Source of the DNA: Thermoleophilia bacterium
Lineage (GTDB): Bacteria > Actinomycetota > Thermoleophilia > Gaiellales > JAICJC01
Length of the DNA: 50,398 nucleotides
Reading direction: 5' to 3'
Assembly: GCA_025927685.1 (NCBI GenBank)
Contig: JAICKX010000011.1
Coordinates: forward strand, 1 to 50,398
The position numbers and the translations under genes were made by a program. Positions 3,083 to 50,398 of this stretch are shown here, piece by piece. The first letter of the stretch is position 1; every line of letters begins with the position of its first letter. The notes below the pieces were generated by a model that searched no databases, was not told the origin of the DNA, and saw nothing but the letters and a program-made list of their open reading frames with translations.

Positions 3083-5800
3083 TCACCACTCGACGAGCTT
3101 CCAGACCTCGGGCTGCATGCCGGCCTCCCCGTCGCCGACCTCGGCGAACAGCGTCACCGCGCGCTTCAGGTGCTCCATCGCCTCCGGCTCGCGGCCGGCC
3201 CGGTGCAGCAGGTCGGCGAGGTTGTTGTGGAGCGCGGCCTCGCGGTGGCGATCGCCCTGCTCGGAGCAGAGGTCGAGCGCGCGCGAGGTGTGGGCGACGG
3301 CCGTCTCCGTCTCGCCCGACCGGCCGCAGGCCAGCGCCAGGTTGTTCAGGGCCGCCACGAGCACGCTGCGGTCGGGGAGCGCCTCGGCCAGCTCGACGCT
3401 CCGTTCCAGGTGCTCGCGCGACCCGGTGAGCATGCCGAGGATGTTGCACGCCTGGGCCACGGCCTCCGGGTCGTCCGCGGCCTCGCCGAGCTCAAGCGAC
3501 CGGCGCGCGAGCCCGGCCGCGGCGTCGCTGTCGCCCCGGCGATGGGCGGCCAGGCTGCGGTCGGCCTGGACTCGCGCCGACTCGCCGCCGAGCCGGAGCG
3601 CCTCGAGCAGATGGCGGTCCGCGAGCTCGGGATCGCCGCGCCGGTCGTGCACCCTGCCGAGCTTGTGCTCGATCCCGGCGACCGAGCCGGGCTCGCCGAG
3701 GGCGGCCGCGGCCTCGTAGGCCGAGAGTGCCGCCGCGTATTCGCCCCGGAGCGTGTGCAGGTCGCCGATCGCCTCGTGCAGGAGCGCCGGCTGGTCGTGC
3801 CCCAGGCCGATGGCGGACCGGTAGGCGTCGAGCGCGACGCGGTGGGCGTACACGCTGCGCGCGCGGTCGCCCGCCCGGCGGAAGGCCTCGGCCGCCTCCG
3901 CCTCGTGCCCGGCCGCCAGCAGGTGGCGGGCGACGAGCGCCGGGTCGGCATGACCGACGGTGAGCGTCTCGGCGACGCGCCGGTGCAGCAGCCGGCGGCG
4001 GGCAAGCCCTGCACGCTCATAGGCGACCGCGAGCAGCTTGTCGTGCGAGAACTCGTATCCGGCGTCGCGCTCCACGAGGAGACCGCGCCGGGTCAGCTCC
4101 TCGAGGCCCGCGGCCGTCTCGTCCTCGCCCCTGCCGGCGGCGGCCCGTACGGTGTCGACGTCGAACGTCCGCCCGATCACCGCTGCCGCGGTGAGGAGCT
4201 GGAGCGACGCCTCTCCGATGCCGTCCAGGCGGGCGGTGAGCAGCTCGCGCACGCCCACCGGGAGCCCGCCGTCCTGCGCTGGATCCGTGAGCGCCGCCAG
4301 GTACTCGACGACGAAGAGCGGCAGCCCCTCCGTCTCGTCGAAGAGCTCCGATGCGCGGGCCCCGATTCCGGCGGCCGTGGCCAGCTCGGCGACGTCGGCG
4401 CGGGTCAGGCGGCCGAGCCGGATGACGCGATCCGCCGAGCGCCGCAGCACGGCGTGGTCGGCCCCGATCTCCTCGGAGCGCCACGCCGCGGCGACGAGGA
4501 TCGGCCGCCCCGCCAGGCGGCGGACGAGGTAGCCGACCATCGCGAGCGACGCCGGGTCGGCGAACTGGAGGTCGTCGAGGAAGAGCAGTCCGGGCGGGCG
4601 CGAGCCGGTGAGCGCCGCGATCACGTGGGCCAGTCCCTCGTACAGCCGCTGCTGGGCGGCGGCGCTGTCCGGGGCGGCGGGAGCCTCGCCGCCGATCTCG
4701 GGCACGAGCCGGGCGGCCTCGGCGCGCCAGTGCGCGGGGACGGTCGCCAGCGGCTCCTCGCCCGCCGCGTCGAGCGCGGCCCGGATCGCGGCCGCGACGA
4801 GCCCGAAGGCGATCCCAGCCTCGCCCTCGTGCGACCGGGCCACGGCGGCGACGTTCCCTCCGGCGCGGGCCGCCGCCGCCAGGTCCTCGCCGAGCCGGGT
4901 CTTCCCGACGCCGGCCTCGCCCTCGATGATGACGAGGCGCCCGTCCGGGCCGCACGCGCCGTGCTCGGCCACGACCGCCTCCCATTCGCCGGCGCGGCCG
5001 ACGAGCGGGCTGACCGGGGCCGCCGCCGGCGCGGCGGCCGAAGCGGCCTCGGCGACCGGCGTCTCCACAGGCCTGCCCTCGTTCACGGCGTTGTAGATCT
5101 CCGTGGTCTCCGCCAGGGGCCGCACGCCGAGCTCGCGGTCGAGCACGCGCACGCAGTCGCGGTACTGGCTCAGGGCCTCCGAGCGGCGCCCGCTCGCCGC
5201 GTAGAGGCGGATCAGCGTCCGGTGGGCGGGCTCGTGCAGCGCGTCGAGCGCCAGCCGCCGGCGGGCGTGGGGGATGGCGTCGTCCGGCCGGCCGCTCGCC
5301 TCGAGCGCCGCCACGAGCCGGTCGAGCGCGCGCTCGAGCTCGGCCCGCAGCTCGGCCGCTGTGTCCCGCTGCCAGTCGTCGAAGCGGACGCTGTCGCGCA
5401 CCCCGAACCCGGCCAGGAGGTCGTCGCGGTGCAGCGCGACCGCCGCCGCGAGCGGTTCCACGGCCGCCTGCCCGTCGCCGGCGGCGGCGGCGAGTGCCCG
5501 GAAGCGGGCGACGTCCACCGCGTCCGGCTCGACGTCCAGCATCACCGCCGCCCGGCTGACGGTGACCCACCGACCTCCGAGCGCGGAGCGCAGCGACGAG
5601 AGCGTACGCCGGAGCGCCGCCCGGCCGCGGTCCGGATCGGTGTCGGGCCAGAGCAGGTCGACGAGCAGATCGCGCGCCTGCGGGCCGCCCGTCACCGCCA
5701 GATGCGCGAGCAGCGCGACGGCCTTGCGCGTGTCCACCCGCAGCGGCTCGCCGTCGATCTCGATGCGGGGCGTCCCGAGCACGTCGATGCGAAGGGACAT
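3083..5800 (-). CDS. BTAD/SARP-type transcriptional regulator with AAA ATPase and TPR domains (AfsR/MalT-like)
   Basis: 905 aa; N-terminal MSLRIDVLGTPRIEIDGEPLRVDTRKAVALLAHLA wHTH, BTAD region, Walker A EGEAGVGKTRL, Walker B LLFLDDLQFAD, TPRs. Confidence 0.9.
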   Translation of the reverse strand: MSLRIDVLGTPRIEIDGEPLRVDTRKAVALLAHLAVTGGPQARDLLVDLLWPDTDPDRGRAALRRTLSSLRSALGGRWVTVSRAAVMLDVEPDAVDVARFRALAAAAGDGQAAVEPLAAAVALHRDDLLAGFGVRDSVRFDDWQRDTAAELRAELERALDRLVAALEASGRPDDAIPHARRRLALDALHEPAHRTLIRLYAASGRRSEALSQYRDCVRVLDRELGVRPLAETTEIYNAVNEGRPVETPVAEAASAAAPAAAPVSPLVGRAGEWEAVVAEHGACGPDGRLVIIEGEAGVGKTRLGEDLAAAARAGGNVAAVARSHEGEAGIAFGLVAAAIRAALDAAGEEPLATVPAHWRAEAARLVPEIGGEAPAAPDSAAAQQRLYEGLAHVIAALTGSRPPGLLFLDDLQFADPASLAMVGYLVRRLAGRPILVAAAWRSEEIGADHAVLRRSADRVIRLGRLTRADVAELATAAGIGARASELFDETEGLPLFVVEYLAALTDPAQDGGLPVGVRELLTARLDGIGEASLQLLTAAAVIGRTFDVDTVRAAAGRGEDETAAGLEELTRRGLLVERDAGYEFSHDKLLAVAYERAGLARRRLLHRRVAETLTVGHADPALVARHLLAAGHEAEAAEAFRRAGDRARSVYAHRVALDAYRSAIGLGHDQPALLHEAIGDLHTLRGEYAAALSAYEAAAALGEPGSVAGIEHKLGRVHDRRGDPELADRHLLEALRLGGESARVQADRSLAAHRRGDSDAAAGLARRSLELGEAADDPEAVAQACNILGMLTGSREHLERSVELAEALPDRSVLVAALNNLALACGRSGETETAVAHTSRALDLCSEQGDRHREAALHNNLADLLHRAGREPEAMEHLKRAVTLFAEVGDGEAGMQPEVWKLVEW

Positions 5801-46336: not shown

Positions 46337-46807
46337 TTAGCGCTGGATGCAGTGCGAGTGCGCGAACTGAACCGTGGGGTGGTCACCATCGAGACCCATG
46401 GCTGCGTGGAGTACGACGGCGAAGTGGAGCTGCGATCCGTCGGTGCCTTTGAGATTGACGCTCTCGGTGAATGTGGAGATGTCGGTGGTCTTAGTGATGT
46501 TGTCGCCGTCCCAGAAGGCGAAGTGTCCGGTGTAGGTGGGAAGCGATGGATCGGAGGGCACGAGTGTGTCCGTGCCCTGGGCCGTCACGGTGAAGTGGTA
46601 GGTGCCGTCTGGGAGCTGCGTAGTGTGCATGACGCCGTCAGACACTAACGTCTCGGTAAAGGAGCCTTGACCGTTGCAGTCCGAGATGATGTCCGATTCG
46701 ACGAGGTCGGAGAAGTGGATCGTCTGGGTGTCTGCGGTGGCGCCTGCGGTCGTGATGGCGGCCGCCCAGGCGACCACCGCGGTGGCGAGGATGGTGATGA
46801 CGCGCAT
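46337..46807 (-). CDS. Small secreted protein, uncharacterised
   Basis: 156 aa, signal peptide MRVITILATAVVAWAAAITTAGATA; beta-rich remainder. Confidence 0.75.
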   Translation of the reverse strand: MRVITILATAVVAWAAAITTAGATADTQTIHFSDLVESDIISDCNGQGSFTETLVSDGVMHTTQLPDGTYHFTVTAQGTDTLVPSDPSLPTYTGHFAFWDGDNITKTTDISTFTESVNLKGTDGSQLHFAVVLHAAMGLDGDHPTVQFAHSHCIQR

Positions 46808-46897
46808 GTCAGCTCCTTGAGTCGAGTGCGCGTCGAGTGTCGCGCGGAGCGCTGAACGAAACCTGAACGGGCGCCGAGAAGCCGGTACTCTCGACGA

Positions 46898-49800
46898 ATG
46901 CGGCCGTCGCCGTCCGGCATCGAGTACCGCGTGTTGGGGTCGGTCGAGGCGGTGCGCGGCGACAGTAGGATCGATCTGGGCGGGCCTCGTCACCGCGCAC
47001 TCCTGGCCGTGCTCGTGCTTCACCGAAACCAGATCGTCTCGACGGATCGTCTGATCGAGCTGATGTGGGGCGACCGGCCGCCGGCGAACGCGGCGAACAC
47101 CGTGCATGTGCTCGTCTCGCACCTACGCCGCTCCCTGGCTAGAGATGGCGAGGACGGCCCGTTGGTGACGCATCGTCCCGGCTACCGGCTAAGCGTGGAG
47201 GCTGGGTGCGTTGACGTCGAGGTGGCCGAGCGGTTCCGCGAGGAGGCAGCGCAGGCGATGGCCGCGGGCGATCCCCGAGCGGCGGCCGATGCGCTTCGCC
47301 GAGCGGTCGCGCTGTGGCGGGGCGAGCCTCTGCCCGAGCTGCGGGACAGCGTCGAGCTGGCCGGGGACCGCCGCCGGCTGGCAGAACTCCGGCTCGACGT
47401 GCTCGAGGAGCGGCTCGACGCCGATCTCGCTTGCGGGCGTCATCGCCAGGTCGCGAACGAGGCGGCGGCGCTCTTGCGTCTCGAACCACTCCGGGAGCGG
47501 TTGCGGGGGCAGGTGATGCTCGCTCTTTACCGGTGTGGACGCCAGGCGGACGCGCTCGAGGTGTACCGCGACGGCCGCACGCTGCTCGTCGAGACCCTGG
47601 GTGTGGAGCCGAGCCCAGATCTGCGCGCCTTGGAGCGGGCGATCCTCAACCATGACCCTGCTCTGAGAGCGCCGGCGGGGATCGTGAGGATCGCCCGGCG
47701 CGGCTACCCACTCCTCGTACTAGCCGGCGCCGCGGCGCTTGTGGTCGTGATTCCCGTGCTCTTGGGGTTCCACAGCCGGCGGGTGGAGTCGGCGCCGGCC
47801 GCGTTCGTCGCGTTGGTCCGCGGTTCCAGCACCGTCTCCGCGAAGGCGCGGCTGCCCAGGGCGGGCGTGATCGTCGCCCAACCGGACGGTACGGCGTGGG
47901 TCGCCGACACGACCGCCGGGACACTCAAGCACATCGGCCCGGGTGGGAGGGTCCGCGTGGTCGGGCTGGGCGGGCGACCCAGCGATCTGGCCTGGGGCTT
48001 CGGCATGGTGTGGGTGGGCGCGGCCGCCGACCGCCGCCTGACCGCCTACGACCCGGCGACGGGCTCGACGCCGCTCACCGTCGGGTTGGCGACCAGGCTC
48101 GGCGCGGTCGGCGAGCCAGCCGCCCATCTGGCCATCGGGTCGGGATCGGTCTGGGTGGATAACGGCGGCTCGGCCGGGGTGTGGCGCATCAACCCGGTCA
48201 CGGGCCGGGTCGAGGCGCGTATCCGCCACGTCCAGACCGGCGTGATCGCCTCCGGCATGGGCGCGGTGTGGGTGGCCGGCAACTTCTTCGGCTCGCCGAG
48301 GATCGACCGGATCAGCCCGGCCACGAACCGCCCCACCCGGGCGATCCCACTACCCGCGGGGACGCCTATCGCGATGACCGCTGCCGGCGGCGATTTGTGG
48401 GTGGCGACCGACGACGGCTCGCTGTGGCGCGTCGCCGCCGACACAGGCGCGACGACCGCTGTGCCCGTCCGGGGTGCGGTCGAGGCGCTTGCGGCCGGCC
48501 CGTCCGGTCTCTGGGTCGTGACGGCGGATGCGGTGCTGCGGCTCGACCCGGCCACCGGCGGCGTGCTCACCCGCGTCCCGATCGACGAGCCGCCTGCTGC
48601 GCTCGCCGCGACGGGAGCGGGCGCTTGGGTCGTCGCAGGCCGCTCAAGCTCGACGAGTAGCACGAACCCGCGCCACGGGACGCTCACGATCGCCCTTAAC
48701 ACGGGCATCGACACCATCGACCCGGCCGTGTCCTTCTTTGCGACCGTATGGCAGCTCGAGTATGCCACCGAGCTCCGGCTGCTCACATACCCGGACGTGG
48801 CCGGCCCTGCCGGCACGCATCTCGTGCCCGACGCGGCGACCGCGATGCCCGTGATCTCCGAGAACGGCCACACGTACACCTTCACGATCCGGCGTGGACT
48901 ACGGTTCTGGCCAGGCGGCCAGCCGGTCACGGCGGCCAGCTTTCGTGCCGGGGTCGAGCGGGCGCTCAGCCCTGGAATCGACTCGCCGTGGGCCCGCGGC
49001 TTTATGGCCGACCTGGTCGGAGCCTCCGCCTTCGAGCACGGCCACGGGACCCACATCAGCGGCATCCGCGTCGACGGCGGCGACACGATCTCGTTCACTA
49101 CGACCGGCGTCGATACTGACTTCCCCACCCGGATCGCTATGCCGTTCTATGCGGCTGTGCCTCCCAACACGCCGGACGTGCAGGCTCTCCATCCGCTGCC
49201 AACAGCCGGCCCCTATTACATCGCGGCGTACCGCCCGCACCGTCTCCTGCTCCTGCGCCGAAACCCCGGCTATCGTGGCCCCCGCCGCGGCGCGGCAGCG
49301 GCGATTCGCTACCGGCTCGGCGGGCCGGGCTCGACACCCGCATGGCGACTGGTTGCCATCGGGCGCGCCGACTACGACGCCGACCCGCTCAGCCCCGCGC
49401 AGCTCCCCGCGGCCCGACGCGTAGGAGGCGACCACATCCGACTGGACGTCCAACCCGCCGCCATCCTTGAGTACCTCGCCCTGAACATGCGGTCGCCTCG
49501 GATGCACGACCCGCGGCTTCGCCGCGCCATCGCCCTTGCCATCGACAGATCCGCGCTCGCCGCCACCCACGGCCCCGACGCCGCAAGCCCCACCGACCAG
49601 TACCTACCGCCTACCATCCTCGGCTACCCCGGAACCGGACTCGCATACCGGCTCGAAACGCCGGACGTCTCCGCTGCCCACAGGCTCGTCGATGCGACCG
49701 GCATGCACCAACCCATCACCCTCCGCCTCAGCTCGTGTAGCGACGCGACATGCCGCGCAGACGGCGCGCCGGCCCGTGCCCGGCTCCTGCGCAGCGAGCT

Positions 49801-50191
49801 TCGCCGAATCGGCATCCGGCTCGTTGTCCGCACGCTCCCGCGCGACGACCAGTTCATGCTCGACACCTCCCACACCAGCGGGTATGACATCGCCGACGAG
49901 GGGTTCGTGTTTCCCAACCCTGATCCGAGCCTGATCGAGTACCCGCTCACCGCCGAGGCGAGCATGGCCCTGACCCACGCCATCCGCGCCGCCGACCACG
50001 CCCCAATCCCCGCCCGGTACGACGCGTGGGCGCACGTCGACTTCTCCCTCGCTCGCCGGCAGGTACCGCTCGCCGCATACGCCATCGCCAACACCCTCAC
50101 GCTCACCAACACCCGCCTCGGCTGCGTCGTGGTTCAGCCCGTGTACGGCCTCGACCTCACCCGCGGTTGTGTGACCGCGCCGTCGGGGTGA
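46898..50191 (+). CDS. BTAD/AfsR-type DNA-binding regulator fused through a TM to a beta-propeller and an SBP_bac_5 (oligopeptide-binding-like) domain
   Basis: N-term EYRVLGSVEAVRGDSRIDLGGPRHRALLAVLVLHRNQIVSTDRLIELMWG; BTAD; TM YPLLVLAGAAALVVVIPVLLGF; propeller repeats (GSGSVWVDNGG, GAVWVAGN, GDLWVATDDGSLWRV); C-term YTFTIRRGLRFWPGGQPVTAASFRAGVERAL...LRRAIALAIDRSALA. Confidence 0.9.
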   Translation: MRPSPSGIEYRVLGSVEAVRGDSRIDLGGPRHRALLAVLVLHRNQIVSTDRLIELMWGDRPPANAANTVHVLVSHLRRSLARDGEDGPLVTHRPGYRLSVEAGCVDVEVAERFREEAAQAMAAGDPRAAADALRRAVALWRGEPLPELRDSVELAGDRRRLAELRLDVLEERLDADLACGRHRQVANEAAALLRLEPLRERLRGQVMLALYRCGRQADALEVYRDGRTLLVETLGVEPSPDLRALERAILNHDPALRAPAGIVRIARRGYPLLVLAGAAALVVVIPVLLGFHSRRVESAPAAFVALVRGSSTVSAKARLPRAGVIVAQPDGTAWVADTTAGTLKHIGPGGRVRVVGLGGRPSDLAWGFGMVWVGAAADRRLTAYDPATGSTPLTVGLATRLGAVGEPAAHLAIGSGSVWVDNGGSAGVWRINPVTGRVEARIRHVQTGVIASGMGAVWVAGNFFGSPRIDRISPATNRPTRAIPLPAGTPIAMTAAGGDLWVATDDGSLWRVAADTGATTAVPVRGAVEALAAGPSGLWVVTADAVLRLDPATGGVLTRVPIDEPPAALAATGAGAWVVAGRSSSTSSTNPRHGTLTIALNTGIDTIDPAVSFFATVWQLEYATELRLLTYPDVAGPAGTHLVPDAATAMPVISENGHTYTFTIRRGLRFWPGGQPVTAASFRAGVERALSPGIDSPWARGFMADLVGASAFEHGHGTHISGIRVDGGDTISFTTTGVDTDFPTRIAMPFYAAVPPNTPDVQALHPLPTAGPYYIAAYRPHRLLLLRRNPGYRGPRRGAAAAIRYRLGGPGSTPAWRLVAIGRADYDADPLSPAQLPAARRVGGDHIRLDVQPAAILEYLALNMRSPRMHDPRLRRAIALAIDRSALAATHGPDAASPTDQYLPPTILGYPGTGLAYRLETPDVSAAHRLVDATGMHQPITLRLSSCSDATCRADGAPARARLLRSELRRIGIRLVVRTLPRDDQFMLDTSHTSGYDIADEGFVFPNPDPSLIEYPLTAEASMALTHAIRAADHAPIPARYDAWAHVDFSLARRQVPLAAYAIANTLTLTNTRLGCVVVQPVYGLDLTRGCVTAPSG

Positions 50192-50224: not shown

Positions 50225-50261
50225 GCGGTTCGAATAGTGACCGATTAGCTCCATGGGGTCG
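50225..50261 (+). repeat. Third, degraded copy of the tRNA-Ala T-arm/acceptor end plus flank
   Basis: GCGGTTCGAAT-agtgaccga-TTAGCTCCATGGGGTCG compared with GCGGTTCGAAT-ccgc-TTAGCTCCATGGGGTCG at the tRNA. Confidence 0.75.
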
Positions 50262-50398
50262 GGGGGACCCACAAAGTGGGGGGACCACCCCCCAAAGGTG
50301 AGTGGGGGGCCCGCGGGGGGGGGCGCGGGGGGCGCGCCGCCGCGGGGCGGGGGGGGGCGCGGGGCGGAACCCAATACCGGGGGGGGTATGGGCCATGA

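Follow-up and report, generated by a model that had tools for sequence, protein, structure and literature searches.

Streptomyces antibiotic regulatory proteins (SARPs) are cytoplasmic switches of antibiotic genes. Among them, AfsR and the other large Streptomyces SARPs have an output made of a winged helix-turn-helix (wHTH) and a BTAD domain. The subject here is a gene at one end of a 50,398-nucleotide stretch of DNA (hereafter the window) from a Thermoleophilia bacterium (assembly GCA_025927685.1, contig JAICKX010000011.1), whose product shares with these proteins the wHTH–BTAD output, the DNA-contact residues and, putatively, the 11-bp direct-repeat type of operator. However, AfsR is cytoplasmic and carries NOD/NB-ARC and TPR domains, whereas the C-terminal part of the window protein consists of a transmembrane (TM) helix, a beta-propeller and a solute-binding protein (SBP) domain. 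The words "membrane" and "transmembrane" do not occur in a 2024 review of SARP classes.

Regulators of three other kinds come close to this arrangement. The E. coli transcription factor SgrR, like the window protein, combines a winged helix with an SBP_bac_5 domain in a single chain, but it is cytoplasmic and without TM helix, propeller or BTAD. ToxR and CadC, in which the wHTH is at the N-terminus, share a cytosolic DNA-binding output, one TM helix and an extracytosolic sensor with the window protein (whose topology is taken from the charge rule only), but they are proteobacterial and lack BTAD, propeller and SBP. Such membrane one-component regulators combine the cytosolic DNA-binding output and the extracytosolic sensor in a single protein (PMC7593790). 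The third kind is represented by PknD, a kinase with an extracytoplasmic propeller (PMC2877116), by AfsK, a kinase with pyrroloquinoline quinone (PQQ) repeats, and by a Streptomyces coelicolor kinase with a solute-binding domain of the Glu/Gln type (both PMC1262709). These resemble the window protein in joining an output domain to an extracytoplasmic propeller, PQQ repeats or a solute-binding domain, but their output is a kinase. Since propeller kinases and solute-binding kinases have already been described, the principle is known, and it is the SARP form that is new: a literature search, short on subscription journals, found no publication on a wHTH–BTAD–TM–propeller–SBP architecture and none on a protein with both SBP_bac_5 and BTAD. 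The best available interpretation, and one that the evidence supports, is that the window protein is a SARP by sequence, working like a membrane one-component regulator of the ToxR/CadC type with an importer-type receptor. The gene and the parts of its product are the following.

46898–50191, plus strand: regulator open reading frame, 1097 aa in an unbroken frame, wHTH–BTAD–TM–propeller–SBP_bac_5
46916–47194, plus strand: winged-helix DNA-binding domain (Trans_reg_C/ODB), residues 7–99, from Pfam; residues W57, P62, S74, R77 and R78 keep the AfsR contacts
47210–47647, plus strand: BTAD, residues 105–250, from Pfam
47711–47767, plus strand: sole TM helix, residues 272–290, from hydropathy; predicted N-in from charge bias
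47801–48637, plus strand: predicted extracytoplasmic beta-propeller, residues 302–580, from Pfam (DUF6923) and an all-beta AlphaFold2 model
48659–50188, plus strand: SBP_bac_5 domain, residues 588–1097 (Pfam core 642–1013), from Pfam and relatives of solved structure

The original prediction had read this gene as one continuous frame of 1097 aa encoding SARP/AfsR-type DNA-binding and BTAD domains, a single TM helix at about 47700–47770, propeller repeats and a full family-5 SBP domain, and every part of that reading was borne out. It did not include the two 11-bp direct repeats, the pairing with a divergent gene for an exported protein, the exchange of output domains or the missing peptide-amine anchor, all described below. 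The frame is open for 1097 codons. Pfam matches above cut-off were obtained for Trans_reg_C (residues 30–98, 47.1 bits against a cut-off of 26.2), BTAD (105–250, 147.8 against 22.1), a DUF6923 repeat that makes the propeller one of the YVTN/DUF6923 type (469–567, 37.9 against 27) and SBP_bac_5 (642–1013, 149.9 against 32.4), the last over nearly the whole profile (positions 2–356 of 368). The NB-ARC and TPR domains and the SgrR_N domain (which we take to be PF12793) were absent among the Pfam matches of the protein. Residues 272–290, with a mean hydropathy of 2.79, are its only hydrophobic segment and separate the two halves. The closest solved structure for residues 7–256 is the SARP domain of AfsR (E 2.5e-44), and for residues ~570–990 two peptide-binding SBPs, 8upi and 2wok. 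Structure prediction, proposed earlier as a check, succeeded for two of the three parts: AlphaFold2 modelled the SARP domain (residues 10–255) confidently, with a predicted local distance difference test score (pLDDT) mostly of 80–95, and residues 302–580 as an all-beta propeller. The SBP domain, modelled alone, gave a mean pLDDT of 36 and an unreadable pocket, because the alignment had only three SBP-bearing sequences.

Could the long frame be an artefact, in which an error of assembly or reading frame has joined a SARP gene to an SBP gene? The gene lies near the contig end, and just past its stop codon the last ~130 bases (50260–50398) are low-complexity G/C runs that resemble assembly noise. 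However, when a profile made from a seven-row alignment was run against 299 Thermoleophilia genomes, the whole model was covered in one uninterrupted frame of ~1.1 kaa in at least 13 genomes from four families, the window's included; this is a lower bound, since two candidates were scored per genome. The at least 12 other genomes thus have the same architecture with identical junctions, and one of them (G240) is a single contig of 5.9 Mb, which excludes frame error and assembly chimera and leaves this explanation with virtually no probability. The relatives with full architecture include a Solirubrobacterales metagenome-assembled genome (PLES01000109, L065). A profile made from the single protein found no relative in the genome contigs, and it was the alignment-based profile that recovered them. 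In a phylum-wide sample of 398 genomes, searched with a more stringent threshold, two had the SARP form, both Thermoleophilia, and in five genomes outside the class the match was confined to the sensor half (model positions ~262 to 1114). As a separate observation, the GC skew flips within the regulator gene, from +0.125 in its first half (46–48 kb) to −0.112 in its second (48–50 kb), which might mark fused parts with different histories.

Which half faces the cytoplasm? Lysine and arginine residues were counted in the 15 residues on either side of the TM helix in 50 members of the family, some rows being one protein from overlapping loci. The totals were 230 before the helix and 69 after it, with an excess before the helix in 48 of the 50. 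By the positive-inside rule, this bias would place the output in the cytoplasm and the propeller and SBP outside.

The best reason to regard the outer half as a signal input is that unrelated outputs have been exchanged over it. By Pfam, the TM–propeller–SBP5 half also follows two other outputs: a guanylate cyclase domain in L057 and L058, and a Ser/Thr kinase in L059 and in L046, the latter from the window's own genome. L080, identified with our own domain profiles, is another kinase–TM–propeller–SBP5 protein. L046, L059 and L080 bridge the described propeller kinases and solute-binding kinases. L046 (1–2715, minus strand), a single frame running to the contig end, has a kinase, a cyclase-like domain (by our own profile only), a TM helix, a propeller and the first part of an SBP5 domain, so that its sensor would carry two signalling outputs. 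The SARP–TM–propeller half, in turn, is joined to Peripla_BP_6 in L055 (Pfam), and a paralogue in the window's genome (L045, 2353–5676, minus strand) has a Peripla_BP_6-type domain, by our own profile, in place of SBP5. On a tree of 44 SBP domains, at least 10 changes of output label are required, and SARP and cyclase versions stand side by side (L158 with L166, support 95); the window SBP forms a long branch. An approximately unbiased test on this tree rejected a single origin for all of the sensor fusions (p 5e-8).

The outer half thus seems to be a genuine receptor family that can be reused. Together with the charge-rule topology, its exchange among SARPs, cyclases and kinases supports the ToxR/CadC-like membrane one-component logic that had been proposed for the window protein. 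We lean slightly towards a broader view, that this is a shuffled actinobacterial receptor module (TM helix, YVTN-type propeller and importer-type binding protein) set over SARP, cyclase, Ser/Thr kinase and kinase-plus-cyclase outputs, with the SARP branch representing the first membrane-tethered SARPs (TM-SARPs), often controlling a paired divergent gene for an exported protein. On the other hand, SBP_bac_5 is the receptor family of the Dpp/Opp importers, and other SBP5-like proteins that lack a SARP domain occur in the genome. The SBP might thus also deliver substrate to an ABC peptide importer, the regulator sensing the flux of transport by contacting the permease, beyond ligand occupancy. 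This is rather improbable, since the output exchange points to sensing, and no permease gene was recognised beside the window gene or the listed full-length relatives (neighbours judged by eye rather than by Pfam scan).

How would such a receptor work? The gene quite probably encodes a one-component transmembrane receptor-regulator that acts on its divergent neighbour and on itself. The propeller and SBP_bac_5 domain outside the membrane would sense a ligand, either a small and perhaps peptide-like compound itself or a partner protein that presents it. The state of the sensor would cross the single TM helix to the cytoplasmic wHTH–BTAD part, most simply through a changed pairing of two protomers, and the paired SARP domains would bind the 11-bp direct repeats between the two genes, which lie 90 bp apart. 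RNA polymerase would then be recruited in the manner of AfsR, mainly to the divergent gene (46337–46807, minus strand) and probably also to the regulator's own promoter. Alternatively, the signal could act by regulated proteolysis, cutting off the sensor so that the SARP domain leaves the membrane, a mechanism reported for Salmonella CadC. Proteolytic control of membrane one-component regulators is known (PMC7593790), and the linker between BTAD and TM helix was modelled with very low confidence, so it is probably flexible. However, the cyclase and kinase versions have the same sensor and need no release, which favours a common conformational signal. By this argument from analogy, tethered action is preferred, and proteolytic release appears unlikely.

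The tethered regulator would act at the regulator–neighbour intergenic region (46808–46897), where the candidate sites and the neighbour are arranged as follows.

46337–46807, minus strand: divergent gene for a 156-aa protein with an N-terminal signal peptide and the Shine–Dalgarno sequence AAGGAG; no Pfam family; probable target
46821–46839, no strand assigned: direct repeat GTCGAGTG-CGC-GTCGAGTG, 11-bp period, candidate SARP operator
46836–46841, minus strand: candidate weak −10 element GACACT, 6 bp past the 22-bp box, picked after the box had been seen
46852–46869, no strand assigned: direct repeat CTGAACG-AAAC-CTGAACG, 11-bp period, candidate SARP operator with no second exact copy in the genome
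46869–46848, minus strand: 22-bp box CGTTCAGGTTT CGTTCAGCGCT, containing the CTGAACG repeat and read toward the divergent gene
46886–46891, plus strand: candidate −10 element TACTCT, putative leaderless promoter of the regulator gene

In the AfsR structure, contacts to the DNA backbone include W74, P79, S91, R94 and K95, and bases are contacted by R92 and T88 (PMC10936776). The backbone positions are occupied by W57, P62, S74, R77 and R78 in the window protein, so the suspicion that its wHTH might lack DNA-binding residues proved unfounded, and across the TM-SARPs these residues (W/P/S/R/K, or R for K) are kept in 41–43 of 43 members, R94 in all 43 and S91 and W74 in 42 each. SARP operators are direct repeats with an 11-bp period (PMC10936776). 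Perfect 7-bp repeats at this period were present in 12 of the 43 TM-SARP upstream regions, whereas the other periods between 6 and 26 averaged 1.3 (binomial p 6e-9), and the window has two at 11 bp. The same signal was found within 200 bp upstream of 17 of the 77 soluble SARP genes in the collected loci; autoregulation may therefore be general in the SARP family. In the AfsR-dependent afsS promoter the −35 element is TTCAGC (PMC10936776). The spacing from GACACT would put the 22-bp box at −40 to −19, matching the geometry of that promoter, but the fit is suggestive only, since the hexamer is weak and was chosen with the box in view. A genome-wide search found the exact box once, together with two one-mismatch sites, one inside a long coding-like frame (C191) and one without a clear adjacent gene start (C194), and no regulon is therefore claimed. 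Just before the regulator start, often after GTG or GTGC, a −10-like hexamer TAnnnT is present in the window and in five relatives (L055, L068, L074, L192 and L196), which suggests leaderless or short-leader transcripts.

A divergent gene for an exported protein is found beside 21 of 39 TM-SARP genes, compared with 10 of 70 other SARP genes (p 2e-5) and 31 of 358 other genes of the same loci (p 6e-11). Given any divergent neighbour, it is exported for 21 of 33 TM-SARPs and 16 of 128 others (p 1e-8). These comparisons rest on signal peptides from a hydropathy heuristic, genes called by codon GC, non-independent family members and, for the soluble SARPs, a taxonomically different control. Ten of the divergent genes were scanned and three matched Pfam, each in a different family (arylsulfotransferase-like, lactonase/YNCE propeller and cupin), which indicates that the partners are united by role and not by family. 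The window's secreted protein was also considered as a conserved partner family and rejected: homologues were present in 6 of 61 genomes, the window's included, and the SARP/sensor family was not found in the neighbourhoods around the other five.

Several points weigh against the picture of a receptor acting on its neighbour and on itself. The base contacts R92 and T88 of AfsR correspond to H75 and V71 in the window protein, so the operator letters should differ from those of AfsR and are not predictable. Q48 of AfsR corresponds to R. On the regulator strand, the repeat sits 16 bp from the candidate −10 element, and the canonical distance is 8. The divergent partners belong to no single family. 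The window's own partner has its closest relative in G004 (63% identity), where the contig retrieved had no SARP/sensor-family protein and no such repeat was seen upstream. Finally, the SBP pocket may be altered or non-binding, since the WxxD motif is replaced.

49904–49915, plus strand: FVFP, residues 1003–1006, at the position of WxxD (the peptide-amine anchor), from alignment with relatives and OppA

In OppA and DppA, the Asp of WxxD holds the amino group of the peptide. The WCAD of OppA aligned with WVAD of a relative. Since 12 of 13 standalone and 20 of 28 fused SBPs have the motif, peptide binding seems feasible for most relatives. To judge from its residues, the window member probably binds something other than a peptide, or has lost small-ligand binding. 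Might the SBP, and perhaps the propeller too, then be degenerate or structural, binding protein or cell wall and sensing the state of the envelope? The loss of WxxD and the long branch of the window SBP are consistent with this, as are the exported nature of the divergent partners and the use of propellers as interaction or sensor scaffolds, as in PknD (PMC2877116). However, the window protein keeps 53 of the 76 family-conserved SBP columns, several of those that it lacks are insert columns, and most fused SBPs retain the motif. Envelope sensing is thus a possibility to be taken seriously, though a doubtful one.

The window contains a second SARP-type gene (3086–5800, minus strand; 905 aa), with a wHTH–BTAD-like N-terminus followed by a region that appears by eye to be of the ATPase/TPR type; a clear TM helix is absent. 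By eye it reads like an ordinary large soluble SARP/LAL-like regulator.

What would a SARP gain from a membrane anchor? If the interpretation is true, a membrane-tethered branch with its own receptor gives SARPs a direct input from outside the cell. Since SARPs, cyclases and kinases share the sensor, the family would lend itself naturally to testing how one TM helix can signal to unrelated outputs. In the Thermoleophilia, a class of soil bacteria known mostly from metagenomes, the paired genes for exported proteins and the 11-bp repeats would be ready targets for experiments.
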